A program made the translations under genes and the position numbers. From the NCBI RefSeq assembly GCF_014203895.1, contig NZ_JACHJY010000001.1:992001-1056000 (forward strand): a DNA stretch of 64,000 bases, in the 5' to 3' direction. The notes beneath the pieces were generated by a model. The model was not told the origin of the DNA. It did not search any database and worked only from the letters and a program-made list of their open reading frames with translations. The stretch's first letter is position 1. Each line of letters starts with the position of its first letter. Of this stretch, positions 4,331 through 17,895 are shown one piece after another. Origin of the DNA: Streptomyces nymphaeiformis. Its GTDB lineage: Bacteria; Actinomycetota; Actinomycetes; Streptomycetales; Streptomycetaceae.

Positions 4331-5152
4331 ATGGGGTGGACGGTCCTCTACATCGCGTTCGGCGTGGTCGCACTGTGGCTGCTGGGGGAGGTGCTCCTCC
4401 AGTACAAGGCGCGGCTGCGCTGGCGCCTGCTCGCCTTCGGCGGCTTCCTCTGCGTGGTCATCGGCGTCCTGCTGCCCTCGGTCCTCGTCATCGTCGCCGG
4501 GGCGGTGGCCTTCGCCGTCGGCCAGACCTATGTGACGCTCTCCTTCCGCCGCGGCTTCTCCACCGGCTGGGCGATCGGCGGCAGCCCGGGGGCGAGCCGC
4601 CGCCGCAGGGCCGCCGCGCCGGCCGGACCCACCCTGGAGGTCACCGAGCTCTCGTACGACTCGGAGGACACCGGGTACGACACCGGGTACGGCGAGGAGG
4701 ACGGTCCCGGCCACGACCCGCACCCCGAGACCGCCGCCGAGACGACGGCCGTCTACGAGCCGCAGCCCATGCCCGAGGACACCGGCCAGTACGGGGTCTA
4801 CGGCGCGGGGTACGACTCCTACACGGCGTCCGGGTACGAGCAGCCCGCGTACGACCAGACCTCCTACGAGCAGCCCGGCTATGCCCAGCAGCCCGCCTAC
4901 GACTACGGCGCCGCCGCCGGGCAGCAGCAGTACGCCGCGTACTCCGACCCGTACATCGGCCCGGGCACGGACAGCCAGCAGTACACCCCGTACTACGCCG
5001 ACCCCTACGCCCCCTCGTACACCTACGACACCCCGCCCGGCGGCGTCTGGGTCCCGCAGCAGCGCGACACCGACCACGCCCCGCAGCAGCAGCAGCCGCA
5101 GGCCCCGTACGGCTACGAGCAGCCGCACCCGGACGACCAGTACCGCTACTAG
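4331..5152 (+). CDS. Membrane protein with long Tyr/Gln-rich tail, function unknown
   Basis: 273 residues. The first 70 residues contain about three hydrophobic segments (YIAFGVVALWLLGEVLLQY; LLAFGGFLCVVIGVLLP; VLVIVAGAVAFAVGQTYVTL). From about residue 90 it is a hydrophilic, acidic, low-complexity tail with over 30 Tyr, repeating units such as SYEQPGY, YDQTSYEQP and DPYAPSY, and ending DDQYRY. The tail resembles prion-like or phase-separating regions and cytoplasmic tails that are Tyr-phosphorylated or bind partners. No known domain is recognised. It follows metF by 54 bases and is probably co-transcribed. Confidence 0.7.
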   Translation: MGWTVLYIAFGVVALWLLGEVLLQYKARLRWRLLAFGGFLCVVIGVLLPSVLVIVAGAVAFAVGQTYVTLSFRRGFSTGWAIGGSPGASRRRRAAAPAGPTLEVTELSYDSEDTGYDTGYGEEDGPGHDPHPETAAETTAVYEPQPMPEDTGQYGVYGAGYDSYTASGYEQPAYDQTSYEQPGYAQQPAYDYGAAAGQQQYAAYSDPYIGPGTDSQQYTPYYADPYAPSYTYDTPPGGVWVPQQRDTDHAPQQQQPQAPYGYEQPHPDDQYRY

Positions 5153-5156
5153 GGCC

Positions 5157-6566
5157 TCACTGGGAGCCGCGGAAGTCCGCGCCCTCCACGATGAGCCCGG
5201 CCACAAGGGCGCCCGACATGCCCGCGTGCGCGAGCCCGCCGCCGGGGTGGGACCAGCCGCCGGCGAAGTACAGGCCGGGCAGCGGGGAGCGGTTGGCGGC
5301 CGGCAGGAGCCGGCCGTCGGCCCCGGCCAGCGCGGGCCCCGGCACCTCGGCGGCGCCCGTGTCCCGCCGTACGTCCTCCGGGGTGCGGACGTGCCGCCAC
5401 AGCAGTCGCTCCGCGAGCCCCGGGACCGCCCGGCCGGCGGCCTCGACCATCCGGTCGGCGAAGGCCTCCCAGTCCTGCTCGGCAGCCGTGCGCACGGTCG
5501 CCGTGACCGTCACCGACTCGTACGCGCCGTCCGGGTGCAGCGCCGGGTCGTCCGGCCGCAGCACGGTCACGGTCGGCCGCCCGCCCTCCGCGTGCACGAC
5601 GGTCCGGTGGACCGCGTCCTCCTCCCGGGGGCCGCGCAGGGCCAGACAGACCGTCACCCGGCCCGTGCCGATCGCCTGGTGACGCGGCGCGCCCTCGCCG
5701 TGGTGGAGCGCCGGAACCGGGGCCCCGGACACCACGTGGTCGGCCTCGACGGTCCCGCCGTTCGCCAGCCGCACCCCGGCCGCCCGGCCGTCCTTCTCCA
5801 GGACGTCCTCGACCGCCGTGTCGAACACGAACTCCACCCGCCGCTTCCGGCACCGCTCGTACACCGCGTCGGCGAGCGCCCGCAGGCCCCCGCCCACGTA
5901 CCAGCTGCCGAAGGTCTGCTCCATGTACGGCAGGACGGCGGCCGAGGCCGGGGCGGTCGCCGGGTCGAAGCCGTACGACCACGCGTACGCGTCGAGGAGG
6001 GCCGCGAGCCGCGGGTCGCGCAGCTCCCGCGCCCCGACCTGGGCGAGCGTGGTCGTCGGGCGGCGCAGCAGGCCCGCCTTCAGGGCCGGGTACGGCTCAC
6101 GGGCGAGGGGAGCCGGGTCGGCGGGCTGCGGCTCCTCCAGGAGCGGGCGCCGGGTGCGGTCCCAGGCCTCGCGGGCCCGGGTCAGGAAGTCGCCCCAGCG
6201 CTCGCCCGCGCCCGCGCCGAGCGCCGTGTCCAGGGCGGCGACCGTGCCGGCCCGGGAGGCGTTCGGCAGGTCGACGCGGGTGCCGTCGGCGAAGACGTGA
6301 CGGGCCGCCGGATCGACCTGCGTCAGCGCGACGCACTCCTCCAGGGGCTCCTTGCCCGTCTTCACGAACAGGTCCCGGTAGACGGCGGGCAGGTGCAGCA
6401 GCCCGGGACCGGTGTCGAAGGCGAAGCCGTCGCGCTCGAAGCGGCCGACCGCGCCGCCGTACGTCGGCGTCTTCTCGTACACCGTCACCGTGTGTCCGGC
6501 GACCGCCAGTCGGGCCGCCGCCGCCATGGCGCCGAGTCCCGCGCCGATCACCACAATCCGTGCCAT
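5157..6566 (-). CDS. Phytoene desaturase-like FAD oxidoreductase (CrtI/CrtN family)
   Basis: 469 residues. The N-terminus MARIVVIGAGLGAMAAAARLAVAGHTVTVYEKTPTYGGAVG is the dinucleotide fold of the CrtI family. The C-terminal block LPGLYFAGGWSHPGGGLAHAGMSGALVAGLI is the family's second FAD signature. No phytoene synthase or other carotenoid gene is adjacent, so the substrate is uncertain (carotenoid or another polyprenoid). The ATG at 6564-6566 follows a -10-like TAGACT by 7 bases on the minus strand, supporting a leaderless start; an in-frame GTG at 6596 lies upstream of that -10. Confidence 0.8.
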   Translation of the reverse strand: MARIVVIGAGLGAMAAAARLAVAGHTVTVYEKTPTYGGAVGRFERDGFAFDTGPGLLHLPAVYRDLFVKTGKEPLEECVALTQVDPAARHVFADGTRVDLPNASRAGTVAALDTALGAGAGERWGDFLTRAREAWDRTRRPLLEEPQPADPAPLAREPYPALKAGLLRRPTTTLAQVGARELRDPRLAALLDAYAWSYGFDPATAPASAAVLPYMEQTFGSWYVGGGLRALADAVYERCRKRRVEFVFDTAVEDVLEKDGRAAGVRLANGGTVEADHVVSGAPVPALHHGEGAPRHQAIGTGRVTVCLALRGPREEDAVHRTVVHAEGGRPTVTVLRPDDPALHPDGAYESVTVTATVRTAAEQDWEAFADRMVEAAGRAVPGLAERLLWRHVRTPEDVRRDTGAAEVPGPALAGADGRLLPAANRSPLPGLYFAGGWSHPGGGLAHAGMSGALVAGLIVEGADFRGSQ

Positions 6567-6620
6567 GCGGGCGAGTCTATGGGGCGCCTCGGACACCCCA
6601 GGAAGCCCGGTCGGGCCCGG

Positions 6621-7268
6621 TCAGAAGTGTTCGGACCCGTCGCCCGGCAGGCCCCGGGCCCGTGGCCGCGCCCCCGTCGCCGCGAGCCGTCTCTCCTCCC
6701 GCCGCTGCGACCGGCGGCGCCAGAAGCGGCGGATCCGCCGGGCCAGGAAGACCAGTATCGCCAGGCCCGACAGGAGAAGGACGGCCGCGATGACCGAGGC
6801 CGCCACCGGATGGAAGACCGCGAAGGTGACGATCGCGGCGACCCCGAGGTCCTCCGCCAGGCTCAGGACGACGTTCGAGAACGGCTCGGGCGTGGTGTTG
6901 ACCGCCATCCTCGTCCCGGCCTTGACGAAGTGACTGAGCAGGGCGGTCGAACCGCCGATCGCACCCGCCGCCAGCTCCGGCAGCGAGCCGCTCTGCCCGG
7001 CGAGCAGGGCGCCGACCACGGCGCCCGCGACCGGCCGGATCACGGTGTGGACGGAGTCCCATATCGAGTCGACGTACGGAATCTTGTCCGCCACCGCCTC
7101 GCACAGGAACAGCACGCCGGCCGCGACGAGGACGTCGGTGCGCTGCAGGGACGCGGGCACCTCGTCGGTCAGCCCGGTCGCGCCGAAGACGCCGAACAGC
7201 AGGACCACCGCGTACGCGTTGATCCCGCTCGCCCAGCCGCTGGTGAACACGAGGGGGAGTACGGACAC
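6621..7268 (-). CDS. DUF4126 membrane protein
   Basis: 215 residues, function unknown. Hydrophobic segments occur from the N-terminus (VSVLPLVFTSGWASGINAYAVVLLFGVFG) through VLVAAGVLFLCEAVADKIPYVDSIWDSVHT, then IRPVAGAVVGALLAG, a long middle region, and AVFHPVAASVIAAVLLLSGLAILVFLARRIRRFWRRR, with an Arg-rich cytoplasmic tail. The DKIPYVDSIWDSVHTVIRP motif is the family hallmark. The GTG at 7268 is chosen because TACGAT lies 7 bases before it (leaderless), although the frame stays open upstream. Confidence 0.75.
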   Translation of the reverse strand: MSVLPLVFTSGWASGINAYAVVLLFGVFGATGLTDEVPASLQRTDVLVAAGVLFLCEAVADKIPYVDSIWDSVHTVIRPVAGAVVGALLAGQSGSLPELAAGAIGGSTALLSHFVKAGTRMAVNTTPEPFSNVVLSLAEDLGVAAIVTFAVFHPVAASVIAAVLLLSGLAILVFLARRIRRFWRRRSQRREERRLAATGARPRARGLPGDGSEHF

Positions 7269-7595
7269 GCCCGCGATCGTAACCAGGACTGAGTATCCGT
7301 ACCTAGGGGGCGAGATGAGTAGGCGCGCGGATGGGCCCGGTGGTGCCCGGAGGAGAGAGTGGAGCCCACGGAAGGGGCGCGGCTCCGGTACCGCCGGCAC
7401 GGGGCTGCGGAACGGAGGCGCGCACCTGCCGGCACGGGGGAGCGAAAGAGGCCGGTGCGGCGAGGCTCGGGGGGATCGAGCCTCACCGCACCGGCCTTTC
7501 GCGTGTGCGCCTCGGTGGCCTCGCGCGCGTGGCACCGGCCTTTTCGCCCGTCGGGGCGGGCGCGGGTCTTTCGTCCGCGCGGTCCGGAAGGCCGC
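7269..7595. other. Intergenic stretch between DUF4126 and tetR
   Basis: 327 bases without a convincing gene. It holds the -10 of the DUF4126 gene and, at 7449-7497, the terminator of the upstream tetR operon. The repeated GCACCGGCC and CGCGCG words make it low in complexity; nothing else is apparent. Confidence 0.6.
7449..7497 (-). terminator. Terminator of the transporter-tetR operon
   Basis: A 21-bp stem with a single mismatch: arms 7449-7469 and 7477-7497 around a 7-base loop, flanked by TTTC on one side and GAAAG on the other. It is 99 bases past the tetR stop codon. Confidence 0.8.
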
Positions 7596-8204
7596 TCAGC
7601 GGCCGCCCACGCGCCCGTGCAGCAGGCGCGAGAGCGCCGCGTGCACGTCGTCGAGCGAACGCTCGCTCTGGAAGGCCTGCCAGTCGAGGGCCGCCACGAG
7701 CACCATCCCGACGAGCGCGGACGCCGTCAGCTGGACGTCGATCTCGTCGCTCAGCTCGCCGGCCGCCACCCCCTCGCGCAGGACGCCCTCCACCACCGTG
7801 ACGGCCTCCTGACGGACCACCAGGAGCGTCGAGTTCCAGGCGCGCCCGGTGCGCCACAGCTCGGCCACGTACAGCTGGGTGAAGGCCGGGTAGCGGTCGA
7901 TGAAGACGAGGCCCGCCCGGATCATCGCGTCCAGCGCCTCGACCCGGGTCCCGCCGCGCTCGACGGTCTCCTCGGCCGCCGAGCGCAGGGAGGCGGCGAG
8001 CAGCGACACCCCGTGGCGCAGCAGCTCCTCGAAGAGCTCGGTCTTGCTCTTGAAGTTGTAGTAGACCGTGCCCTTGGCCACGCCGGCCCGCTCGGCGATC
8101 TCGTCGACCGTCGTCGCGGAGAAGCCCTGCTCCGCGATGAGGGTGACGGCCGCCTCGTAGAGCTTCGTGCGCGTGGCCTGGCGTCGGGTGCTGCTGCTGT
8201 CCAT
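7596..8204 (-). CDS. TetR-family regulator of the YhgE/Pip transporter operon
   Basis: About 202 residues. The N-terminal DNA-binding domain is canonical: TRTKLYEAAVTLIAEQGFSATTVDEIAERAGVAKGTVYYNFKSK (residues about 12-55). The ligand-binding domain is helical and divergent. The gene is last in the operon, starting within about 20 bases of the transporter stop codon. Its likely operator is the perfect palindrome at 11,286-11,313, so it probably represses its own operon until an unknown ligand binds. An in-frame GTG at 8219 is an alternative start; neither has a strong ribosome site. Confidence 0.88.
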   Translation of the reverse strand: MDSSSTRRQATRTKLYEAAVTLIAEQGFSATTVDEIAERAGVAKGTVYYNFKSKTELFEELLRHGVSLLAASLRSAAEETVERGGTRVEALDAMIRAGLVFIDRYPAFTQLYVAELWRTGRAWNSTLLVVRQEAVTVVEGVLREGVAAGELSDEIDVQLTASALVGMVLVAALDWQAFQSERSLDDVHAALSRLLHGRVGGR

Positions 8205-8223
8205 GGCGTCGATTCTCACAGGT

Positions 8224-10332
8224 TCAGAGCGACAGTTCGGGGTGGAGGCGGTCGAGCGTCCACACCTGCTTCTGCCGCGCCGAGACGGCGGTCAGGGCCA
8301 GGGCGCCGACGGTGAAGGCCGCCAGGACCGCGCAGGCCTGCCAGACCGGTCCGAGCCCGCCGCCCGTGATCAGCCGGCGCAGCGCCTCGACCACGTGACT
8401 CATCGGCAGGAAGGGGTGGACGGCGTTGAAGAAGGCCGGGCTGGTCTGGACGGGGTACGTGCCGCCCGCCGAGGTCAGCTGGAGCATCAGGAACGCGAGC
8501 ACCAGGATCCGGCCCGCCGCGCCGAAGCGGGCGTTGAGCCACTGGATGATCGCGGCGAAGCAGCAGGTGACGAGGGCGAGGAAGCCGATCGTGCCGGCGG
8601 CCCGGGTCATCTGGAGGCCGAGGCCCCAGTGCAGGACCGACATCAGGGCCGCGACCTGGAGGACGCCGATGGCCGCCACCGGGAGCCAGCCCGCGAGCGC
8701 GATCCGCCAGGCGGAGCCGCCGGCGGCGAGGGCGCGCCGGTTGAGCGGCTGAATGATCATGTACGCGACCATCGCGCCGACCCAGAGGGAGAGCGGGATG
8801 AAGTACGGGGCGAAGCCGGTGCCGTAGTTGGGCGCCTTGTGCAGGGACTGCGAGGCCAGCTTGACCGGGTCGGCCATGACCTCCGTACGCCGGTCGCGGT
8901 CCTGCCGGTCGTAGTCGGGGATCTGGTCGACGCCGTCCTTCAGGCCGGTGGCGAGGGTGCCCGAGCCGTCGGCCAGCTTGAACAGGCCGCCGTCCAGGTC
9001 GCCCGCGCCCTTCTTCAGCTTGCCGACACCCGTGTCCAGGCTGACCGAACCGGCCTTCGCCTCGGTGATGCCGGTGTGCAGCCGGTCCGCGCCCGCCGCG
9101 ACCTTCTGCGCGCCCGTGTTGAGCTCGTTGATCTTCCTGATGGCGCCCTCGACGTCCTCGTCGAGGTGCGGGGCGCGGGCGGCCAGCTCGTCGGCCTGCT
9201 TCTGGAGCTTCTTCAGGCGCGCGTCGAGGGTCTTCAGGTCGTCGGTGTTGTCCTTGGTGAGCGCGTGCACGTCGTCGGCGATCGTGGCCACGTCGTCGGC
9301 GGACTGCGCGGCCTTCTTGAGCTCCTTGCAGATCCGCGGGTCGAGGGCGGGAGCGCCGGGGGCGGGTGCGGGGGCGTCCACGCAGATCTCGCGGTGGAGG
9401 TTCGCGAGACCGTCGTCCGCCTTGTGGGCGGCGGAGCGGACCAGGGGCGCGCGCCGCACGAGGTCGTCCAGGTTGTTGCGGGCGGCCGCGGCGGAGTCGG
9501 AGACGAGCCGGGCGGTGTCGCGGATGGACCTGCCGTTGTTCGCCAGGTACGGGCGGACCTTGTCGGCGGTGCCGTTCACCTTGTCGGCGAGGGTCTGCGT
9601 GCCGTTCGCGACCTTGCGGGAGCCGCTCTCCAGGTCCTTGGCGCCCTTGTCGAGCTTCTTCAGGCCGGCGGCGAGGTCGCCGCTGCCGGCCTTGGCGTCC
9701 GTGAGGCCGTCCGACAGGCTCTTGGAGCCCTTCTTCGCCTTGTCCACGCCCGTCTTGAGGTCGGCCGCGCCCTTGGCGGCCTTCGCGGTGGCGTCGTGGA
9801 TGTCGGAGAAGGAGATGAAGATCTTGTCGAGGAAGCTTCGCGAGGACTTCGTGGAGGCCGCGCTGCGCACCTCGGCGAAGACCGTCCGGGAGATCGAGCC
9901 GACGATGTAGTTGTTGGCGTCGTTCGTCCGGACCCGGAGCGCACCGGTCTCGGGGGAGTCGCCGGAGCTGGAGGCGATGCGGGTGCTGAAGTCGCCGGGC
10001 ATGGTCAGGGACAGGTAGTACGTCCCGTCCTCCACGCCCTTGCGCGCCTCGGCGTCGCTCACCTGGTGCCACTCGAAGGTCTTGCTCTCCAGGAGCCCCT
10101 CGGTGATGTCGTCACCGGCGTGGATCTTCTTGCCGCCGGCGGTGGCGCCGCGGTCCTCGTTGACGAGGGCGACGGGGATCTTGTCGAGCCTGCTGTACGG
10201 GTCCCAGAACGAGTACAGGTACAGGGCGCCGTACAGCAGGGGCAGCAGCAGGATCGCGACGAGCGCGGCGCGCGGCAGCTTTCCCCTGCCGAAGCGCTTC
10301 AGCTCAAGCGCGGCCAGTTTCGGCGAGCGCAT
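8224..10332 (-). CDS. YhgE/Pip-domain membrane protein (ABC-2-like exporter)
   Basis: About 702 residues. One membrane segment follows the N-terminus (LPRAALVAILLLPLLYGALYLYSF), then the Pip motif KIPVALVNEDRGA. A long extracytoplasmic coiled-coil region follows, with repeated Lys/Asp-Gly-Ala-x-x-L heptads (for example LKKLDKGAKDLESGSRKVANG, LDTGVGKLKKGAGDLDGGL). The C-terminus has five or six membrane helices. The family includes the Lactococcus phage-infection protein and YhgE; many actinobacterial members are exporters paired with an ATPase. The gene overlaps the upstream ATPase gene by 29 bases if the Met at 10,332 is the start; an in-frame Met at 10,374 also exists. Confidence 0.85.
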   Translation of the reverse strand: MRSPKLAALELKRFGRGKLPRAALVAILLLPLLYGALYLYSFWDPYSRLDKIPVALVNEDRGATAGGKKIHAGDDITEGLLESKTFEWHQVSDAEARKGVEDGTYYLSLTMPGDFSTRIASSSGDSPETGALRVRTNDANNYIVGSISRTVFAEVRSAASTKSSRSFLDKIFISFSDIHDATAKAAKGAADLKTGVDKAKKGSKSLSDGLTDAKAGSGDLAAGLKKLDKGAKDLESGSRKVANGTQTLADKVNGTADKVRPYLANNGRSIRDTARLVSDSAAAARNNLDDLVRRAPLVRSAAHKADDGLANLHREICVDAPAPAPGAPALDPRICKELKKAAQSADDVATIADDVHALTKDNTDDLKTLDARLKKLQKQADELAARAPHLDEDVEGAIRKINELNTGAQKVAAGADRLHTGITEAKAGSVSLDTGVGKLKKGAGDLDGGLFKLADGSGTLATGLKDGVDQIPDYDRQDRDRRTEVMADPVKLASQSLHKAPNYGTGFAPYFIPLSLWVGAMVAYMIIQPLNRRALAAGGSAWRIALAGWLPVAAIGVLQVAALMSVLHWGLGLQMTRAAGTIGFLALVTCCFAAIIQWLNARFGAAGRILVLAFLMLQLTSAGGTYPVQTSPAFFNAVHPFLPMSHVVEALRRLITGGGLGPVWQACAVLAAFTVGALALTAVSARQKQVWTLDRLHPELSL

Positions 10333-11281
10333 CGGCCGCCCCCTCCTCGGTCGTGGCATCGGTGGTGTCGTCACCCGCGGTCTCCCCGACGGCGGGCGTG
10401 GTGTCCTGGGCGGCGGCCTCGGCCTGCGGGGCGCCGGTCTTCGCAGCGCCGGTCTTCGCGGCGGGGGCCTTCGCGAGGCGGGTCTTCGCGGTCTCGGTCC
10501 GCTCGGCGGGGGCCGCGTCCTCGGCGGCCTCGTCGGCGGCCTTCGCGGTTGTCTCGGCGGAGCGCGTCGTGATGCGCAGGGCGCCCTCGGGGGCCTCGCT
10601 GCAGACGGCGAGGACCGTCGTCCCGGACGCGGCCAGGGAGCGCAGCAGCGCCCAGGCCTCGGCGCGGTCGGCGTCCGAGAGCTTCAGGTCCGTGTCGTCC
10701 ACGGCGAGCAGCCGGGGACGGCCGATCAGGGCGAGGGCGATCGACAGCCGCAGCGCCTCCAGACGCTCCAGGTCCCGTACGGAGGTCCGCTCGCCCTTCG
10801 GCAGGGCGTCGAGGTCCAGGCCCGCGGCCGCGACGGCCTCGTCGATCCGGGCCCTGGCCGAGGCGGCCCGCTCGGCGGGGCGCCGCAGGAGCGCCCGTAC
10901 GGAGCCGTCGAAGCGGCGCTGGAGCAGCGCCCGCTCGCGCAGGTGCTCGGCGACCGTGAAGGCCGGGTCCAGTTCGCTGACGCCCGGGACCTGGCCGAGC
11001 GCGGTGATCCGGCGCACGGCGGCCATCTTGCGGGGCAGGGGCAGCCCGCCGACCTCGGCGTGCCCCTCCTTGGCCTTCATCCGGCCGGTGAGCGCGAGCA
11101 GCAGACAGGTGCGCCCCGAGCCCGAAGGGCCCTCGATGGCCACCAGCGCGCCGGGCTCGGCGCGGAAGGAGACCTGCCGGAACGCCCAGCCTCGCGGTCC
11201 CTTCAGTCCGAAGCCGTCCGCGACGACGGCGGCGCCGTGCGGCCGCTCCTCGGTTTCCGTGCCCACGGACCCACCCCCCAT
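10304..11281 (-). CDS. ABC-type ATPase with degenerate signature and Ala-rich tail
   Basis: 325 residues. Walker A is GPSGSGRT (about residues 50-57) and the Walker B region reads PRLLAVDDTDLKLSD, with Asp-Asp where most transporters have Asp-Glu. The LSGGQ signature is not recognisable; LEALRLSIALALIG stands in its place. After about residue 235 the protein becomes a low-complexity tail rich in Ala, Thr and Lys (TAKTRLAKAPAAKTGAAKTG). It probably energises the downstream YhgE/Pip protein. The ATG at 11,279-11,281 abuts GGGGA too closely; a GTG five codons in, behind GGGGGGTGGG, may be the true start. Confidence 0.78.
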   Translation of the reverse strand: MGGGSVGTETEERPHGAAVVADGFGLKGPRGWAFRQVSFRAEPGALVAIEGPSGSGRTCLLLALTGRMKAKEGHAEVGGLPLPRKMAAVRRITALGQVPGVSELDPAFTVAEHLRERALLQRRFDGSVRALLRRPAERAASARARIDEAVAAAGLDLDALPKGERTSVRDLERLEALRLSIALALIGRPRLLAVDDTDLKLSDADRAEAWALLRSLAASGTTVLAVCSEAPEGALRITTRSAETTAKAADEAAEDAAPAERTETAKTRLAKAPAAKTGAAKTGAPQAEAAAQDTTPAVGETAGDDTTDATTEEGAADALAETGRA

Positions 11282-11285
11282 TCCC

Positions 11286-11313
11286 CTTTTGAACTGACCA
11301 GTCAGTTCAAAAG
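11286..11313. promoter_or_regulatory. Perfect palindromic operator for the TetR regulator
   Basis: CTTTTGAACTGAC-CA-GTCAGTTCAAAAG: 13-bp arms with no mismatch around a 2-base centre. It lies between the -10 box and the start codon of the ABC-type ATPase gene, covering the predicted transcription start. A TetR dimer bound here would block the promoter. Confidence 0.85.
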
Positions 11314-11339
11314 TTACCCCCAGGTTGGGTTTCAGGCAA
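11311..11339 (-). promoter_or_regulatory. Promoter of the ABC ATPase/Pip/tetR operon
   Basis: On the minus strand TTGCCT (-35, 11,334-11,339) and TAACTT (-10, 11,311-11,316) are separated by exactly 17 bp. The predicted start near 11,304 lies inside the operator palindrome. The Tn7-like element begins 10 bp upstream of the -35 box and leaves the core promoter intact. Confidence 0.7.
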
Positions 11340-11343
11340 AACC

Positions 11344-11348
11344 CCAGG
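11344..11348. repeat. Left copy of 5-bp target-site duplication (CCAGG)
   Basis: CCAGG abuts the TGT of the left transposon end and is repeated exactly at 17,299-17,303 beyond the right end. Five-base duplications are the rule for Tn7-like elements. Confidence 0.8.
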
Positions 11349-11436
11349 TGTCCGGTCCTCGTGAACCTGGCGGATGTGTACTGAACCTGGCGAAGTGTCC
11401 GCTTCGCGTCCCGCTGGAGTTGGCGAAAGTGGCGAA
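11349..11436. repeat. Left transposon end with four TGGCGAA-type boxes
   Basis: TGGCGGA at 11,368 and TGGCGAA at 11,388 belong to two 20-bp direct repeats (GAACCTGGCG[GA]A). Two more TGGCGAA boxes start at 11,421 and 11,430. Arrays of this kind bind TnsB in Tn7 relatives; here binding is inferred. Confidence 0.7.
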
Positions 11437-11560
11437 GGGTGCGGCCTCAAAGGAGCGAGACCAGATGTTCCTCAGGCCCTGAGTACCTGATCCATATCCC
11501 CGTGATGCTCATCTGCCGACGCGGGCCGGGTCCATGTAGCGTCAGTGCCAGGGGGATGAG

Positions 11561-11872
11561 ATGAACTTCGACGAGAACGAACCGCAGTCTGTTCGAGAGG
11601 AGCGCTTTGCCGCAGAACGGGCCGACCGCAGAGAGGCACGCAAGGCTGCGTCGCTCGACTTGCGGGGAGCCCACCTCGGCGTGGCCATCGTGACCATCGC
11701 CCTGGCCCTCCTCGGCTGGAACGGGAAGCTGGTCGCCCTGGGCATCGTCGGCGGAGTCTTTCTGCTCTGGTTCTCCGCAGCCCTCGCATGGGCCTACGCC
11801 GACGGAGACCACGGCCGACACGCACTCCAGCGCGCGTACAACGTCACTTTCGGATGGGGCGACGGGTTCTGA
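11561..11872 (+). CDS. Small membrane protein, transposon cargo, unknown
   Basis: 103 residues with no recognised domain. A charged N-terminus (ENEPQSVREERFAAERADRREARKAAS) is followed by two adjacent hydrophobic stretches (LGVAIVTIALALLGW and LVALGIVGGVFLLWFSAALAWAYA, about residues 43-85), then DGDHGRHALQRAYNVTFGWGDGF. The ATG is preceded by CAGGGGGATGAG. It lies inside the transposon with codon use less GC3-rich than chromosomal neighbours, so it is probably accessory cargo. Confidence 0.6.
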   Translation: MNFDENEPQSVREERFAAERADRREARKAASLDLRGAHLGVAIVTIALALLGWNGKLVALGIVGGVFLLWFSAALAWAYADGDHGRHALQRAYNVTFGWGDGF

Positions 11873-11900
11873 GCACCAAGGCCAAAGCAGAGGGGGCGAT

Positions 11901-12272
11901 TTGACGTTCGAGGTGTTGAGGTCCGCTCTGGCCCGGAACGGCTCCATCAGCGGGCCCGCGGCCTTGGCTGCTCTGCTGTCGGGCGCGCGGTGGGAGGTCC
12001 CTTCGAATACGGCCTCGGCCCGCTCGTTGTGGGCGATCTGGTGCGACCGGCTGGACATGTTGGTGGAGACGGAAGTATCTGATCCGGGTCTGCTGGAGAG
12101 CCTGGCTCAGGCCGTGGACGGGCTCCACGATGCAGGAGACGCACGGGTGTACATGGCCACGGTGATCGACCCGCCACGCCGGTTTCACGTCTACCTCTCA
12201 GAGGACCTCGCCCACTGTGTCGGGGCGTGGGAGGGTCGCGTGAACGAGCAGGCTCCCCGAACGGCGACCTGA
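11901..12272 (+). CDS. Hypothetical protein, transposon cargo
   Basis: 123 residues from a TTG start with AGAGGGGG 8 bases before it. No domain is recognised. It is soluble, mildly acidic, with a helical N-terminal half (SGPAALAALLSGARWEV, ARSLWAIWCDRLDMLVETE) and a C-terminal stretch that may form strands (ARVYMATVIDPPRRFHVYLSEDLAHCVGAW). The size and lone position resemble small immunity, antitoxin or anti-defence proteins found as cargo, but nothing in the sequence proves that. It is 28 bases after the membrane-protein gene and probably in the same transcript. Confidence 0.55.
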   Translation: MTFEVLRSALARNGSISGPAALAALLSGARWEVPSNTASARSLWAIWCDRLDMLVETEVSDPGLLESLAQAVDGLHDAGDARVYMATVIDPPRRFHVYLSEDLAHCVGAWEGRVNEQAPRTAT

Positions 12273-12282
12273 ACCGAGGCGG

Positions 12283-12375
12283 CCAGGTCTTCCTGTGAGA
12301 ACTGGCGAACCATGAACCGCTCGTCCCGGTGAATCTGGCGAAGGTGGCGAGCAAGGTGGTTCGTAGCTCGCCACC
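12283..12375. repeat. Internal end-like box cluster and dyad before tnsA
   Basis: TGGCGAA boxes start at 12,303 and 12,336, TGGCGAG at 12,345, and an inverted copy lies at 12,367-12,373. The last two belong to a perfect 10-bp inverted repeat (GGTGGCGAGC 12,343-12,352, GCTCGCCACC 12,366-12,375). The cluster is preceded by CCAGGTCTTCCT, which resembles the left flank plus terminus. It may be the operator through which TnsB controls the operon, or a remnant of an older end. Confidence 0.6.
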
Positions 12376-12383
12376 GTGGAGGC

Positions 12384-13139
12384 ATGGGTGCGGTTTTGAG
12401 ATCGGTGACCGGGGGCGTCCCTTCTCCGGGCGCTGGGTTCGAGGTGGCATACATCGACCGGGACGGTGGTGAACACCGCGTAGACCTGTGCGACGCGGCG
12501 GCGGTTCCGTTCGAGGGCTGTCGCCCGGTGAGGTCGTTCCCGTCGTGGAAGGGCCAGCGCAACTATCCGGGGTTGTGGTGGGCGGCCACGCTCGGCCGGC
12601 ACGTCGGGTACGAGTCCTGGCTGGAACGGGATCACGCGATGCTGTTGGACTTCGACCAGCAGGTCACGGCGTTCGCGTCGCAGCCGATGTGGCTGTTCTG
12701 GACATCCGGCGGGCGCCGCCGCTCTCACGCTCCGGACTGGTTCGCGCGAAAGGCGGACGGCACCGGGCTGATGGTGGACTGTCGGCCTCTGAACCGGATC
12801 AGGCCGCGGGACGCGGAGGCGTTCGCCGCGACTGAGCGGGCCTGCCGGGAGATCGGTTGGGAGTTTCGTCTGGCCGGGGCGCCCGATGGCGTCTTGCTGG
12901 CAAATGTCCGCTGGCTGGCGGGATACAGGCATCCCCGCCATCTGGTGGGCGCCGTTGCGGACCGGCTGCTAGGTGTCTTCGGTCGAGAGAAGGCCTTGCG
13001 CGACGGGGTGGAGCGGGTGGGCGATCCGATCGCGGTCCTGCCAGTGCTGTTCCATCTGCTGTGGTCAGGACGCTTGGCAGCGGATCTATCCGTACTGCTG
13101 GGCGAGTACACCATGGTCCGCAGGGTGGAGGCGGCGTGA
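12384..13139 (+). CDS. tnsA: TnsA-like transposon endonuclease
   Basis: 251 residues. TnsA cuts the 5' ends of the element so that it moves by cut-and-paste. The restriction-like core is visible: YESWLERDHAMLLDFD (acidic residues E77/E81), HAPDWFARKADG (D118), and VDCRP (131-135), where Arg-134 stands at the position that is usually Lys in PD-(D/E)xK-type TnsA. The C-terminal part (YRHPRHLVGAVADRLLGVFGR and beyond) would be the helical TnsC-contact domain. The ATG is unusually close to GGAGG (1 base), so a GTG 7 codons later may be used. Its stop overlaps the tnsB start. Confidence 0.82.
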   Translation: MGAVLRSVTGGVPSPGAGFEVAYIDRDGGEHRVDLCDAAAVPFEGCRPVRSFPSWKGQRNYPGLWWAATLGRHVGYESWLERDHAMLLDFDQQVTAFASQPMWLFWTSGGRRRSHAPDWFARKADGTGLMVDCRPLNRIRPRDAEAFAATERACREIGWEFRLAGAPDGVLLANVRWLAGYRHPRHLVGAVADRLLGVFGREKALRDGVERVGDPIAVLPVLFHLLWSGRLAADLSVLLGEYTMVRRVEAA

Positions 13140-15208
13140 TGGCTGGGCTGTCGTCCCGGCCGGGGGTGCTGCGCGTCGGTGACCGGGTGTTGTTCGAGGA
13201 GACCGAGCACACGGTGGTCGGCATTGAGGGCACCGCCGTGCGCTTGCACGGCGACGACGGGCGGGACCAGGTCGTCCTGCTGCCCTACATGCTGGCCTCG
13301 GACGGCTTCGCGCTGATCGGCTCTGCCTCGGACCCAGAGGAGTTCGCCGCGGTCGGGGTCCTGGAGGCGTTGCCGCCTGCGGCAGTGGCCGAGGCCCGGT
13401 TCTGGGAACGACATGTGACGGAAGTCGAGCACGGATTGCCTTGCGATGCCGCCCCAGATAGCCGTCCCCGCCCGGATTACGATCCAGCCCGCACCTCGCT
13501 GGCGGAACGGGAGCGGACCAAGGCCGATGAACTGGCGGTGCTTGGGCGGCCGGTGGGGCGACGGACGCTGCAACGGATGCGGGCCCGCTACCGGGCACAA
13601 GGTCTGCTGGGCCTGGTGGACCGTCGGGCGATGCGCCCGTCGTCTCCGACCGGACGAGCCGACCAGCGGGTGATCGATGCGATCGTCCGTGCGATCGGAG
13701 AGGAGACCGACGTATCCACGGGCACCCGCTCGCGCCTGATGCGGCGAGTCGGGCAGATCCTGGACGACGAGCATGGGCCCGGAGCGGTCCCGATGCCATC
13801 CCGGACGTCCCTTTATCGCCTGGTCGACCAGCTATCCGTAGGGCGACACACCTTCGCCGCGGCCACCACCCGGCGGCAGAACGCCAACCGGCCGACTGGT
13901 CCGTTCACCCTGACTATGGCGAGCCGTCCGGGCGAACAGGTACAGATCGACACCACCAAGCTTGATCTGCTGGCCGTCCTCGACGACGGAACAGTTCGCC
14001 GGCCGGAGCTGACCATCGCGGTCGACATCGCCACGCGGACGATCTGCGCGGCAGTCCTGCGGCCGGAGAGCACGAAGGCGGTGGACGCCGCCCTGCTGCT
14101 GGCGAAGATGCTGGTGCCCGAGCCTATGCGGCCGACCTGGCCCCAGGCCCTTGCCGCGTCGGCGTCCCGGCTTCCACACGCCCGGCTGATGGAGATCGAC
14201 GCTCGGTTCGAGCACGCTGCTGCGAAACCGGTGATTGTCCCGGAGACCATCGTCACCGATCACGGCACTGTCTACTTGTCGCAGACGTTCACCGCCGCCT
14301 GCCAGCGTCTGGGTATCTCCGTCCAGCTCGCCCACCCTGGAACCCCGACCGACAAGGGCGTCGTCGAGCGGACGTTCTCCTCGATCAACACCCTGTTCTG
14401 CCAGTACGTTGCCAGCTACACCGGACGGGACGTCAGCCGGCGCGGCGTCGACCCGGCTCGCAAAGCGGCCTTCAGTCTTGCCGAACTCGACGACCTGTTC
14501 CAGGAATGGGTCATCGCCGGGTGGCAGATGCGTCCGCACGACGGGCTGGTACACCCCTTCCTGCCCGGCCGGTCCCTGTCACCCAACGACGCATACGCGC
14601 TCCAGGTCGCCGCCAGCGGCTATCTGCCGATACCGCTCGGTCCGTCCGACTACATCGAGCTGCTGCCGGTGACCTGGCGAGTGATCAACGAGTACGGCAT
14701 CCGTATCGCCAACCGCACGTACGACGCGTCTGAGCTGGCTGCCTACCGAAGGCAGTCCTCCGGTGTCGCGGTCCAGCGCGGCAAGTGGGAGGTTCACTAC
14801 GACCCCCACGACCTCAGCCACATCTTCGTACGCAACCACCGCCAAGGCGGCTGGATCACTGCTGAGTGGACCCTGCTACCTCTCGTCGCCCGCCCGTTCT
14901 CCGACGCACTTTGGCGTCAGGCCCGGCGCCAGGTCGTCGAACGCGGCCAGGACGGCGACGACCAGACTGCCATCGCCAGGGCCCTGGACGCGCTGCTGCG
15001 ACGGGCAGAACGACAGGCGGAGTCCCGCAAGATTCCGCCGCCCAGGGCGGGGACGAGGAACGCGCCTGAGGCGATTCCGCTGCGGACGGCCTCGGAACTC
15101 GACACGGACGACAGCGGCGACGACCAGGACGAGACCGCTCCGACGGAGCTGGCCAAGGTCATCCCGTTCGGCGTCTTCGACCCCTTCAGCGAGGAGGACT
15201 ACCGGTGA
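13139..15208 (+). CDS. tnsB: TnsB-like DDE transposase
   Basis: 689 residues. It is the recombinase that binds the ends, cuts the 3' strands and joins them to target DNA. An N-terminal helix-turn-helix region contains GRPVGRRTLQRMRARYRAQGLLGLVDRR (about 137-163). The rve-type core follows, with D271 (QIDTTKLDLL), D374 (ETIVTDHGTVYL) and E410 (PTDKGVVERTFSSINTLF): a complete DDE triad. A Mu-type beta-barrel region and a charged C-terminal tail ending FGVFDPFSEEDYR follow; the tail is the usual TnsC-binding part. The start is the ATG overlapping the tnsA stop (GTG one codon earlier is possible). Confidence 0.92.
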   Translation: MAGLSSRPGVLRVGDRVLFEETEHTVVGIEGTAVRLHGDDGRDQVVLLPYMLASDGFALIGSASDPEEFAAVGVLEALPPAAVAEARFWERHVTEVEHGLPCDAAPDSRPRPDYDPARTSLAERERTKADELAVLGRPVGRRTLQRMRARYRAQGLLGLVDRRAMRPSSPTGRADQRVIDAIVRAIGEETDVSTGTRSRLMRRVGQILDDEHGPGAVPMPSRTSLYRLVDQLSVGRHTFAAATTRRQNANRPTGPFTLTMASRPGEQVQIDTTKLDLLAVLDDGTVRRPELTIAVDIATRTICAAVLRPESTKAVDAALLLAKMLVPEPMRPTWPQALAASASRLPHARLMEIDARFEHAAAKPVIVPETIVTDHGTVYLSQTFTAACQRLGISVQLAHPGTPTDKGVVERTFSSINTLFCQYVASYTGRDVSRRGVDPARKAAFSLAELDDLFQEWVIAGWQMRPHDGLVHPFLPGRSLSPNDAYALQVAASGYLPIPLGPSDYIELLPVTWRVINEYGIRIANRTYDASELAAYRRQSSGVAVQRGKWEVHYDPHDLSHIFVRNHRQGGWITAEWTLLPLVARPFSDALWRQARRQVVERGQDGDDQTAIARALDALLRRAERQAESRKIPPPRAGTRNAPEAIPLRTASELDTDDSGDDQDETAPTELAKVIPFGVFDPFSEEDYR

Positions 15209-16266
15209 CCGCCACCGAGACGGCCGACCGCGAGTTCCCCCTGACCACGAAGGAGGGATGGAGTCGCTTCGTCCAGTACGCTCCGGTCAGCACGCCCCCG
15301 TTGGACCGTTCTGCACTGCTGGCCCTCAGCGACATCGAGCGCGAGCTCTACGACGAGGCCCGGGCTGAGCACCACACCCAGCTGTTCGTCGCGAAGACCC
15401 CGACCATGATGGAAGTGATCCGCACCGGTCGGGAGCTGACCCTCCTCAACCGCCGCCAGGTCTCCGCCCGCCGCGGCCTGATCGTCTCCGGCGAGCCCGG
15501 CACAGGCAAGACGACCGCGATCACCCAGCTCGGCAAAGCCCACGAACAGCATGTCCGCCGCCGACTTCCCGCCGACAGCGGGCCCCGGCTGCCCGTCGCC
15601 TACGTGACCGTTCCCCCGGCCGCCACCCCGAAGATGCTCGCGGTCGAGTTCGCTCGGTTCCTCGGCATCCCCCTCTTGCAGCGCATGAACCAGACCGAGA
15701 TCACCAATGCGGTCTGCGAGGTCCTGGCCGAACTGCGCTGCGAACTGGTCCTGGTCGACGAGATCCACAACATCTCGCTCACCACCAGATCCGGCGCCGA
15801 GGTATCCGACCAGCTCAAATACCTCTCCGAGCGGATCGCGGCCACGTTCGTCTACACAGGCGTCGACGTGGAGTCCGCCGGACTGTTCGCCGGCACCCGC
15901 GGCAAGCAGATCGCCGGACGTTTCGTCAGCATCCACGCCGAAGCCTTCACCATCGCCACCGCCGCCCAGCGTCAGGAATGGCTCGCCCTGCTGGCCACAA
16001 TGGAACAGTCCCTACGGCTCCACCGGCACACCCCCGGCCTGCTGGCAGCCCACGCGGACTTCCTCTATCAGCGGACCTCAGGCATGATCGGCAGCCTCGC
16101 GCACCTGATCAGGGCCGCGGCCCTACGGGCCATGACCTCCGGCACCGAGAAGATCACCAAGCAGCTGCTGGCGGAGATCCCCCTCGACACCGCAGCCGAG
16201 ACGAGCGCCCCGCTCAGCGCGCGTTCGCGGCGAGCCCGCACCGCACAGCGTCGAGCCGCCGGATGA
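15205..16266 (+). CDS. tnsC: TnsC/TniB-like AAA+ target-selection ATPase
   Basis: 353 residues from a GTG overlapping the tnsB stop by 4 bases. Walker A is GEPGTGKTT (96-104) and Walker B is LVLVDEIHNI (181-190); the sensor segment TFVYTGVDVESAGLF follows. This ATPase links a target-binding TniQ protein to the transposase and imposes target immunity. The C-terminus is basic (SARSRRARTAQRRAAG). Confidence 0.92.
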   Translation: MTATETADREFPLTTKEGWSRFVQYAPVSTPPLDRSALLALSDIERELYDEARAEHHTQLFVAKTPTMMEVIRTGRELTLLNRRQVSARRGLIVSGEPGTGKTTAITQLGKAHEQHVRRRLPADSGPRLPVAYVTVPPAATPKMLAVEFARFLGIPLLQRMNQTEITNAVCEVLAELRCELVLVDEIHNISLTTRSGAEVSDQLKYLSERIAATFVYTGVDVESAGLFAGTRGKQIAGRFVSIHAEAFTIATAAQRQEWLALLATMEQSLRLHRHTPGLLAAHADFLYQRTSGMIGSLAHLIRAAALRAMTSGTEKITKQLLAEIPLDTAAETSAPLSARSRRARTAQRRAAG

Positions 16267-17237
16267 ACCACACCCCACTCGGCTCCGAGGCCTTGGCGCC
16301 AGCCCGGAGCCTTCCGATCTCAGTCCGACCCTGGGGACGCGAGTCCTTGCCTTCCTTTGTTGCCCGGCTTGCCGAGGTGAACCGAACGCGTCACACCGCG
16401 CTCTGGCGCCATATCGGTCTGCCCTGTGTCAGGACGATGGGCGCCACGCTGTTGACCAAGGAGGCCGTGCTGAACGGGCTGGCCGTCGAACGACTGGCGA
16501 TCATGTCCAGCCTGTCAGAGGAACGACTGCGGAGGTCCCTTCCCGCGCTGTCCTGGTCCCATCCCTATCCGCCATATCTTCCCGCGAACATTCCCTCGGT
16601 CTACATGAGTGCCGCGAAGGCCCCATCCGGCGTGATCTGTCGTGGCTGTACCACCAGGCGCGGGATCACCGCCGATGTCCGCGCCCACCTGGCGCTTCCT
16701 GACATTGTGTGTCTCCAGCATCGCGTCTGGCAGTCGCCCGCTCCTTGCGATGTCTCGGCGGCGCCTGAAATCGATCGAGCACAACACACCCTCCGTCGCA
16801 TCCGGAGGCTTCATGGCAATCGCGGGATGTCCCTCGGTGTTCGTGACGCTCGCTGGATCATCGCGGCTTGGACCAGCAATGTGTGCCGGGAGTCGGAACT
16901 CACCGATCGCTGGCATTCACGGAGAGCAGTCCTCGGCTTGGTGCCGTGGCACCGGAGCGACGACCTATCGGCTCGGATCGTTACCCACCCAGAGGTTGCG
17001 ATCCTGGCAGCCGCCCTGGCACCCAACTACACGGACCCGACCTACTTCACACGCACCGGGTTTCAGCTCCGGAGATTCAGTGCTTACCTCCGCGCCAGTC
17101 TGGACCTGAACCCCATCCCGCACTCGATGAACGATCCCATCAGGGCGTTCGTCCGCATCGTCCAAAGCAACCGGGCCCGCTGGCGCGACCCCAAAAGCGT
17201 CATGATCACGGAGACGGCGACACCCAGATGCACCTAG
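16263..17237 (+). CDS. tniQ: TniQ/TnsD-like target-site selector
   Basis: 324 residues, start overlapping the tnsC stop by 4 bases. The N-terminal TniQ domain is clear (LPISVRPWGRESLPSFVARLAEVNRTRH). A zinc-binding motif follows: C126-x2-C129 ... C150-x2-H153 (ICRGC and VCLQH). Family members bind DNA and recruit TnsC. The protein is mid-sized: longer than the short TniQ of CRISPR-associated elements but shorter than Tn7 TnsD, so it may read DNA sequence or structure weakly. Its stop is 61 bases from the right end. Confidence 0.87.
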   Translation: MNHTPLGSEALAPARSLPISVRPWGRESLPSFVARLAEVNRTRHTALWRHIGLPCVRTMGATLLTKEAVLNGLAVERLAIMSSLSEERLRRSLPALSWSHPYPPYLPANIPSVYMSAAKAPSGVICRGCTTRRGITADVRAHLALPDIVCLQHRVWQSPAPCDVSAAPEIDRAQHTLRRIRRLHGNRGMSLGVRDARWIIAAWTSNVCRESELTDRWHSRRAVLGLVPWHRSDDLSARIVTHPEVAILAAALAPNYTDPTYFTRTGFQLRRFSAYLRASLDLNPIPHSMNDPIRAFVRIVQSNRARWRDPKSVMITETATPRCT

Positions 17238-17298
17238 TGAAGGTGGCGAACCCCAGCTCAGACGAGGGCCCCTTCGCCATGTATGCGAGGAAAGAACA
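17238..17298. repeat. Right transposon end
   Basis: The end is ACA at 17,296-17,298 (TGT when read inwards). An inverted TGGCGAA box lies at 17,273-17,279, 19 bases inside, matching the left end. A second, degenerate site may lie near offset 43, and a TGGCGAA in the opposite direction is at 17,244-17,250. Confidence 0.75.
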
Positions 17299-17303
17299 CC
17301 AGG
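17299..17303. repeat. Right copy of 5-bp target-site duplication (CCAGG)
   Basis: Identical to 11,344-11,348 at the other end of the element. Confidence 0.8.
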
Positions 17304-17382: not shown

Positions 17383-17895
17383 ATGGCCAGCCCATCCGCA
17401 GCAGCCACGCCCCGCCGCCGTCCGGCCGCCGGAGAGGCGGGACCCGGATCCGACATCCACCCCGTCCCGCGCCGCTCCGCCGCCCCGCCCGCCGCCCTCG
17501 ACCTCCTCGCCAAGTCCCGCGCCGGGCTCGCCGAGGCCGCCGTCCTCGACCGCCCCCACGAGCGGTACGCCACCGCCCACCTCGCCGCCCTGCGTGCCGC
17601 GGCCGCCGTGCTCGCCGCCCGCGCCAGACCCGACACCCGCCCCCGTCACCGGCAGCGGATAAGGAGCGCCTGGGAGCTCCTCCCCGACCTCGCCCCCGAG
17701 CTGACCGAATGGAGCGCCCTCTTCGCGGCCGGCGCCGGCCGCCGGGCCCGCGCCGAGGCCGGCATCGCCGGCGCGGCCACCCGCCGCGAGGCCGACGACC
17801 TGCTCAGGGACGCCGCGCACTTCCTGCGCCTGGTCGAGCGGCTGCTCGCCCTGGGGGGTGTGCCGTCAGCCCGGGGCGACGGGGCAGGAGGATGA
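17383..17895 (+). CDS. SAV_6107-type HEPN protein
   Basis: 170 residues, ATG behind AGGAGG. After a Pro/Arg-rich leader, the core LDLLAKSRAGLAEAAVLDRPHERYATAHLAALRAAAAVLAARARP is the four-helix HEPN fold typical of the SAV_6107 family. It continues through SAWELLPDLAPELTEWSALFAAGAGRR and DLLRDAAHFLRLVERLL. HEPN proteins are often RNases or nucleotide-binding partners, but the canonical Arg-x4-His RNase motif is not obvious here, so activity is uncertain. It lies next to a damage-type promoter. Confidence 0.75.
   Translation: MASPSAAATPRRRPAAGEAGPGSDIHPVPRRSAAPPAALDLLAKSRAGLAEAAVLDRPHERYATAHLAALRAAAAVLAARARPDTRPRHRQRIRSAWELLPDLAPELTEWSALFAAGAGRRARAEAGIAGAATRREADDLLRDAAHFLRLVERLLALGGVPSARGDGAGG

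Follow-up and report, generated by a model that had tools for sequence, protein, structure and literature searches.

In the account of transposition given in excerpts of PMC11406308, TniQ or TnsD recruits TnsC, and a ring or filament of TnsC fixes the side and the distance of insertion in Tn7-like transposons. The attachment sites named in excerpts of PMC10293859, PMC11406308 and PMC8649781 are conserved genes, tRNA genes, guide-RNA targets and resolvase sites, and a small TniQ is presented as the hallmark of elements with an additional selector (Faure et al., excerpts of PMC10293859). For the TnsB clade dominated by Actinobacteria (Benler et al. 2021), the excerpted text reports no experimentally characterised member and names no attachment site (PMC8649781). 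Among titles and abstract openings of the literature on Tn7-like targeting, on operators and palindromes and on Tn5053, mostly from outside the subscription journals, an operator is nowhere described as the attachment site of a Tn7-like element.

The window (the whole stretch of Streptomyces nymphaeiformis DNA that was analysed, 64,000 nucleotides) carries an intact 5,950-bp Tn7-like transposon that lies 49 bp away from the centre of an operator-like palindrome, and the TniQ of this element is predicted, with fairly good confidence, to home by reading one half of that palindrome. The features of the locus are as follows.

7596..8219, minus strand: flanking TetR-family regulator gene, the likely reader of the palindrome
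8224..10374, minus strand: flanking ABC-2 type membrane protein gene, in a presumed operon
10304..11281, minus strand: flanking ABC ATP-binding gene (family match), the gene of the operon nearest to the palindrome
11291..11308, no strand: operator-like palindrome GAACTGACCAGTCAGTTC, 18 bp, proposed attachment sequence, with its centre 49 bp from the left end
11344..11348, no strand: left target duplication CCAGG, from the sequence
11349..11376, plus strand: left terminal repeat with the TGT end, nearest to the palindrome, from the sequence and the end search
11368..11436, plus strand: left array of four TGGCG[AG]A boxes (11368, 11388, 11421, 11430), presumed TnsB sites
11561..11872, plus strand: small cargo ORF of 103 aa, without a Pfam or PADLOC match and with one NCBIfam match far under the cut-off (HalA, E 0.006)
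11901..12272, plus strand: small cargo ORF of 123 aa with a TTG start, without a family match
12303..12342, plus strand: inner pair of TGGCGAA boxes directly upstream of tnsA, from the sequence
12384-13139, plus strand: tnsA (NF033179 TnsA_like_Actin, E 1e-92)
13139-15208, plus strand: tnsB, DDE transposase of 689 aa (Mu-transpos_C, E 1.5e-9)
15205-16266, plus strand: tnsC, AAA+ ATPase (TniB PF05621, E 6.5e-17; Walker motif GEPGTGKT)
16263-17237, plus strand: tniQ, 324 aa, proposed target selector (PF06527, E 6.2e-6)
17244..17279, no strand: right TnsB-type boxes, presumed in role, at 17244 (plus) and 17273 (minus)
17271..17298, minus strand: right terminal repeat, from the sequence
17299..17303, no strand: right target duplication CCAGG, from the sequence
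17383..17895, plus strand: flanking SAV_6107-like HEPN gene (family match), on the opposite side of the site

The element is a Tn7-like transposon that extends from TGT at 11349 to its right end at 17298. Its left and right terminal repeats share 19 of 28 bases, and TGGCGGA and TGGCGAA begin 19 bases inside the two ends; the TGGCG[AG]A boxes are presumably binding sites of TnsB. When TGT..ACA pairs whose 5-bp flanks match were searched for automatically, the same ends came out as the top pair, with 15/22 end matches against 11 for the runner-up. Because this search ranks them first and the relatives found at this locus have similar ends, they represent more than a chance pairing. An earlier note on this DNA had described exact ends with TGT termini, CCAGG on both sides, the repeat identities and the position of the boxes, together with intact and overlapping tnsA, tnsB, tnsC and tniQ frames and the residues D271, D374 and E410, all of which were found in the sequence as claimed. 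The extent of 5,950 bp that it gave is also correct, but its start at 11344 takes in the left duplication. Its Tn7-like identification with exact ends and a 5-bp duplication thus stands, and what it overlooked is the locus as a dedicated homing site.

The four core frames overlap by 1, 4 and 4 bases. The TnsB product scored above the cut-off for Mu-transpos_C and 0.1 bit below it for rve, contains the D271/D374/E410 triad and matches solved TnsB chains, and the TniB (PF05621) and TniQ (PF06527) matches were both above cut-off. TnsA keeps D118 and D132, while R134 aligns with the lysine of the solved PseTnsA in a weak alignment (E 0.13); this arginine was present in 52 of 60 distinct motif rows, the row of the window included. 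Profile searches of the six element genes detected no Cas effector, PADLOC gave only the TnsB, TnsC and TniQ models of CRISPR-associated transposons (CASTs), and neither a CRISPR-like, regularly spaced array among the best 20 of 21 repeat families nor an Rfam match was found in the element. Assignment to the CASTs was rejected on these grounds. Assignment to the Tn5053 family was rejected as well, given the presence of tnsA, the lack of any resolvase family among the six genes and a target that is an intergenic palindrome.

Relatives were collected by one TnsB scan of public genomes, which yielded 23 loci, and by TniQ searches in samples of 392 and 394 genomes; neighbours were compared by blastn of the window against the TnsB-scan loci, and the duplicate records L054, L060, L080, L153 and L154 were excluded from copy counts. 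Hereafter W is the element of the window itself and L numbers are the loci of relatives. Five relatives (L002, L003, L004, L007 and L012) have the same neighbours as W, an ABC gene on one side and the SAV_6107-like HEPN gene on the other, and the whole-genome TniQ searches added two further same-site copies, L079 and L155. The distance from the start of the palindrome to TGT was 57 bp in L003 and L155, 58 bp in W, L007, L012 and L079, and 59 bp in L002 and L004, so that all eight elements lie 48-50 bp from the palindrome centre, each with its tnsA-side end nearest. Seven are on the side of the HEPN gene and L007 is on the ABC side. Exact 5-bp duplications flank six of the eight (W, L003, L004, L007, L012 and L079); the flanks of L002 have six matching bases, GCCAGG, and the contig of L155 stops short of its right end. 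The region preceding tnsC in L079 is taken up by other genes, and searches there gave no match to tnsA or tnsB.

These eight copies represent fewer than eight lineages. W, L002 and L003 have core proteins that are 95-100% alike. The TnsB proteins of L007 and L012 show 54-55% identity to the TnsB of W, and L155 and L012 are 88% alike in TniQ. The TniQ tree joins the W and L012/L007 lineages (support 99/98), whereas the TnsB tree does not settle them; L079 and L155 are absent from both trees. L012 is only 4,972 bp long and encodes tnsABC-tniQ alone; therefore no selector among the cargo is needed for this site. A Tn6022/TnsF type was likewise rejected, as this minimal same-site element has no additional selector gene.

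The palindrome lies directly upstream of the row of ABC, permease and TetR genes, and from this position it is likely to be the operator of the neighbouring TetR-family regulator. GAACTGACCAGTCAGTTC has its sole exact match in the genome here, and the next best match carries 2 mismatches. The earlier note had proposed a search for the empty site in related genomes; when it was run, 221 of 392 Streptomyces genomes matched the uninterrupted site, the genome of the window did not, and the reversed control of the pattern was absent from the matches listed for the 392 genomes. The pattern is strict, and the remaining 171 of the 392 are not thereby occupied. The TniQ query matched five of the 392 genomes. 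Four of them (G000, G056, G332 and G379) are occupied at the site and do not give the empty-site pattern, and in the fifth (G108) the element, L081, is located elsewhere and the site is still empty.

The copy on the other side of the palindrome is L007 of S. ipomoeae. It is inverted relative to the genes and sits on the ABC side. Its tnsA end is again the proximal one, the distance to the centre is the same 49 bp, and the HEPN-side site of the same genome is uninterrupted. The spacers on the two sides of the palindrome differ and have little evident in common. L007 and L012, one on each side, are sister elements with 88% identity in TnsB (computed over stop-to-stop frames) and 55% in TniQ (over trimmed frames). 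This mirror copy, a single case, argues more strongly than any other observation that recognition falls on the symmetrical sequence itself.

A second palindrome was found beside a cousin lineage of seven elements, L061 included, whose TniQ proteins are 87-100% identical to that of L061. Four of them (L055, L056, L061 and L162), which have exact duplications, adjoin CTATTGCAAGC-N-GCTTGCAATAG or a slightly different version of it, whose proximal half lies 58-60 bp from TGT. The same applies to L164 if its motif-assigned end holds; the best-scoring end pair puts that end 19 bp further out. The cousins share the palindrome, and their spacers are unlike. The neighbouring gene has the look of an XRE-type regulator (translation in L056, judged by eye), and the flanks of L055, L061 and L164 share the start of this XRE-like gene. 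The genome of L061 also holds a second copy, L062, which is identical over 7,330 bp, has its own duplication (GCCCA) and is inserted inside an unrelated gene whose translation resembles a SWIM zinc-finger protein by eye. In the flank of L062, 11 of the 13 half-site bases are present at the same 58-bp register. Random stretches reached 11/13 at this register in a fraction of 5e-6 of 200,000 draws; when any of 19 registers was allowed, 2 of 5,000 did so. The real sites are included in both pools. The far half of the palindrome is absent at L062 (6/11 bases); therefore the insertion-proximal half seems to suffice for siting, as judged from this one half-site copy. The seventh relative, L167, has neither palindrome nor half-site.

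The common locus of the eight copies could in principle result from one ancient insertion inherited vertically, with no targeting at all, as the near identity of W and L002 in both element and place might suggest. We regard this as very improbable: the flanks of L007 and L012 are 72-81% identical to those of the window and the elements only 66-68%, which is the reverse of what shared descent predicts, one copy is inverted on the other side, and 221 of 392 genomes have an empty site. It is also improbable, if somewhat less so, that the attachment sequence is the conserved GCAAAA-N-CAGGTCAG at the insertion point, held at a constant spacing from the palindrome by a conserved intergenic region. 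That stretch is conserved in empty sites, and the duplications of W, L002, L004 and L012 share a final CAGG, but L007 is inserted in mirror orientation at the same 49 bp on the other side, where the stretch is lacking, and the cousins at the second palindrome have the palindrome in common and not the spacer.

A more serious competitor, which we still consider rather unlikely, is that the host regulator serves as the beacon, TniQ recognising a TetR-type (or XRE-type) protein that sits on its operator. This would suit a core-sized TniQ of 324 aa and a minimal L012 with no extra gene, as well as the occurrence of two lineages at palindromes beside two unrelated kinds of regulator gene, and the Tn5053-family elements offer a precedent. 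Tn5053 is said to sense res sites occupied by resolvase, in a paper of 1999 that PMC11406308 and PMC7765201 cite. L062, situated in coding sequence beside a lone half-site, counts against a regulator beacon, though not decisively; a dimeric regulator is expected to bind a lone half-site poorly. From the mirror copy and from the cousin beside a lone half-site at the same register, we infer instead that TniQ reads the half-site adjacent to the insertion.

Direct reading of a half-site would apply to two TniQ lineages only, given the exceptions among other relatives and the lack of a palindrome excess in the wider family. L005, which belongs to the TniQ clade (TniQ 38% identical to that of W), has no palindrome and no duplication, and L158 (TniQ 40% identical to that of L012) and the identical pair L159/L160 (33%) are located elsewhere. 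A palindrome rule for the whole family was rejected: at 21 sites hand-chosen from elements with exact ends, left flanks showed little or no excess of palindromes over right flanks (12 vs 10 at a score of at least 6, 7 vs 5 at 7 or more, and 2 vs 2 at 9 or more).

Repeats were also observed near other groups of relatives. In a lon-promoter group (L006, L008, L009 and L020), a HAIR-like repeat lies at a distance of 65.5-69.5 bp from the element end; a second conserved repeat runs in step with the first, so that no anchor can be named. In an LPMO-like group (L011, L014 and L015), GGTCTAGACC occurs 57-61 bp from the end. HAIR, HspR, dre and DasR are the names that we take to apply to these repeats and regulators.

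As to mobility, the earlier note had proposed a recent, possibly active insertion. The four core genes of W are intact, but the 9.2-Mb genome of the window contains no second TnsB match at E 0.001 or better. S. roseicoloratus carries an element at the same place with core proteins 97-100% identical to those of W, and because of this near-identical counterpart either shared descent or repeated insertion may apply to the window copy. L159 and L160 are identical over 5,032 bp and occupy different places in one genome with the duplications GTCAA and CACAC. Together with L061/L062, this pair of identical copies with different places and duplications suggests, from the sequences, that the cousins have moved recently; W itself shows no sign of this kind.

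In the mechanism that we propose for half-site reading, TniQ would bind the half of the operator next to the insertion and, by analogy with known Tn7 biology, would load TnsC there; TnsC would then set the distance and the side of insertion, and TnsB with TnsA would join the element with its tnsA-side end closest to the site. The 48-50 bp found here come close to the 50-60 bp that, according to excerpts of PMC8649781, separate CAST insertions from the protospacer-bearing target. Conservation, symmetry and a position outside coding sequence would make the operator a safe landing pad usable in either direction. More tentatively, and with doubt prevailing, a branch of actinobacterial Tn7-like transposons might be viewed as operator hunters. 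Each TniQ lineage would then have the operator of another host regulator as its unique, conserved, two-way landing pad: that of a TetR-type protein here, that of an XRE-type protein in the sister lineage, and perhaps an HspR-type element (at lon) or a DasR-like one elsewhere. TniQ would find this operator either by imitating the way in which the regulator recognises a half-site or by docking on the regulator once it is bound.

If half-site reading is correct, Tn7-like elements would have an attachment site of a different kind in a palindromic operator that is approached from either side. A core-sized TniQ would be able to choose its target with no added selector gene, and Streptomyces chromosomes would contain a unique and conserved insertion site. 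The mirror copy and the half-site copy constitute natural experiments, and the recognition rule is directly testable.

Compared with Tn7 at its attTn7 site at glmS, the window element shares the tnsA-tnsB-tnsC-tniQ/tnsD logic, TGT ends and 5-bp duplication, as well as a fixed distance and orientation with the recognised chromosomal sequence outside one fixed end. It differs from Tn7 in that its target is a palindromic intergenic sequence used in both directions rather than the end of a coding gene, and in that it has a single core-sized TniQ where Tn7, as described in excerpts of PMC11406308, has a long TnsD plus TnsE. With Tn6022/TnsF, which inserts at comM, it shares a small TniQ and site-specific homing; that system, in excerpts of PMC10293859, has the added selector TnsF and a gene target, whereas L012 manages without an extra selector gene. 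The res site hunters Tn5053/Tn402 resemble it in a single TniQ and in a target that a DNA-binding protein of the cell or of a plasmid occupies (here presumably the regulator), and differ in their tniABQ-res-tniR organisation and resolvase-site targets (excerpts of PMC7765201 and PMC11406308), as opposed to tnsA and an operator-like palindrome. The elements in the clade of Benler et al. (2021) are likewise actinobacterial and Tn7-like. The type of element is known, and what seems to be new is the kind of attachment site, a palindromic operator, and its use from both sides.

Among the related elements at other loci, a pair of identical 5,032-bp elements (L159, 8505-13536; L160, 8193-13224; positions within each locus) occupies two unrelated sites of the same genome, flanked by different target-site duplications, GTCAA and CACAC, and recent movement of this element is therefore likely. 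At L056 and L059, the DNA beyond the right duplication opens with a degenerate left end, a pattern suggestive of successive insertions into a single site. A TnsB relative was encoded by 104 plasmid records, 66 of them from Streptomyces, in a search of a plasmid collection (E 1e-80 or better), all at less than 60% identity. A relaxase-like frame was seen by eye directly upstream of tnsA in six Micromonosporaceae loci (L010, L013, L016, L017, L018 and L019); these relatives may be mobilisable elements that rely on a Tn7-type machine to move.

Cousin elements were located at the following positions within their loci:

L006, 9124: insertion in the lon promoter
L008, 9121: insertion in the lon promoter
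L009, 8847: insertion in the lon promoter
L020, 2321: insertion in the lon promoter
L011, 9167: upstream of a secreted chitin-binding/LPMO-like gene (by eye)
L014, 9127: upstream of a secreted chitin-binding/LPMO-like gene (by eye)
L015, 9127: upstream of a secreted chitin-binding/LPMO-like gene (by eye)

The lon-promoter cousins adjoin a CTTGAGT-N7-ACTCAAG repeat, which we take to be an HspR-type element, at 65.5-69.5 bp to the left end, and the cousins at the LPMO-like gene have GGTCTAGACC at 57-61 bp from the left end.

In cousin L164, an end pair TGTGCCG..CCACG with the duplication CCTCT (4377-14666) encloses the Tn7-like genes and lies 19 bp further out than the end that its relatives would predict; it may be an alternative type of end or mark a nested element. 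In the window, two TGGCGAA boxes, the same motif as at the left end, stand immediately upstream of tnsA (12303-12350). Because the cargo is flanked by the outer left-end array and this inner pair, it may have been inserted within the left-end array; alternatively, the boxes may act in tnsA control.

The window TnsA carries a PD..DxR motif at residues 115-136 (12726-12791), shared with actinobacterial relatives, and arginine occupies the lysine position in 52 of the 60 distinct TnsA motif rows, including that of the window. The TnsA of this actinobacterial family may function without the usual lysine or may be inactive in cutting; a solved TnsA, in a weak alignment, has lysine at the arginine position.
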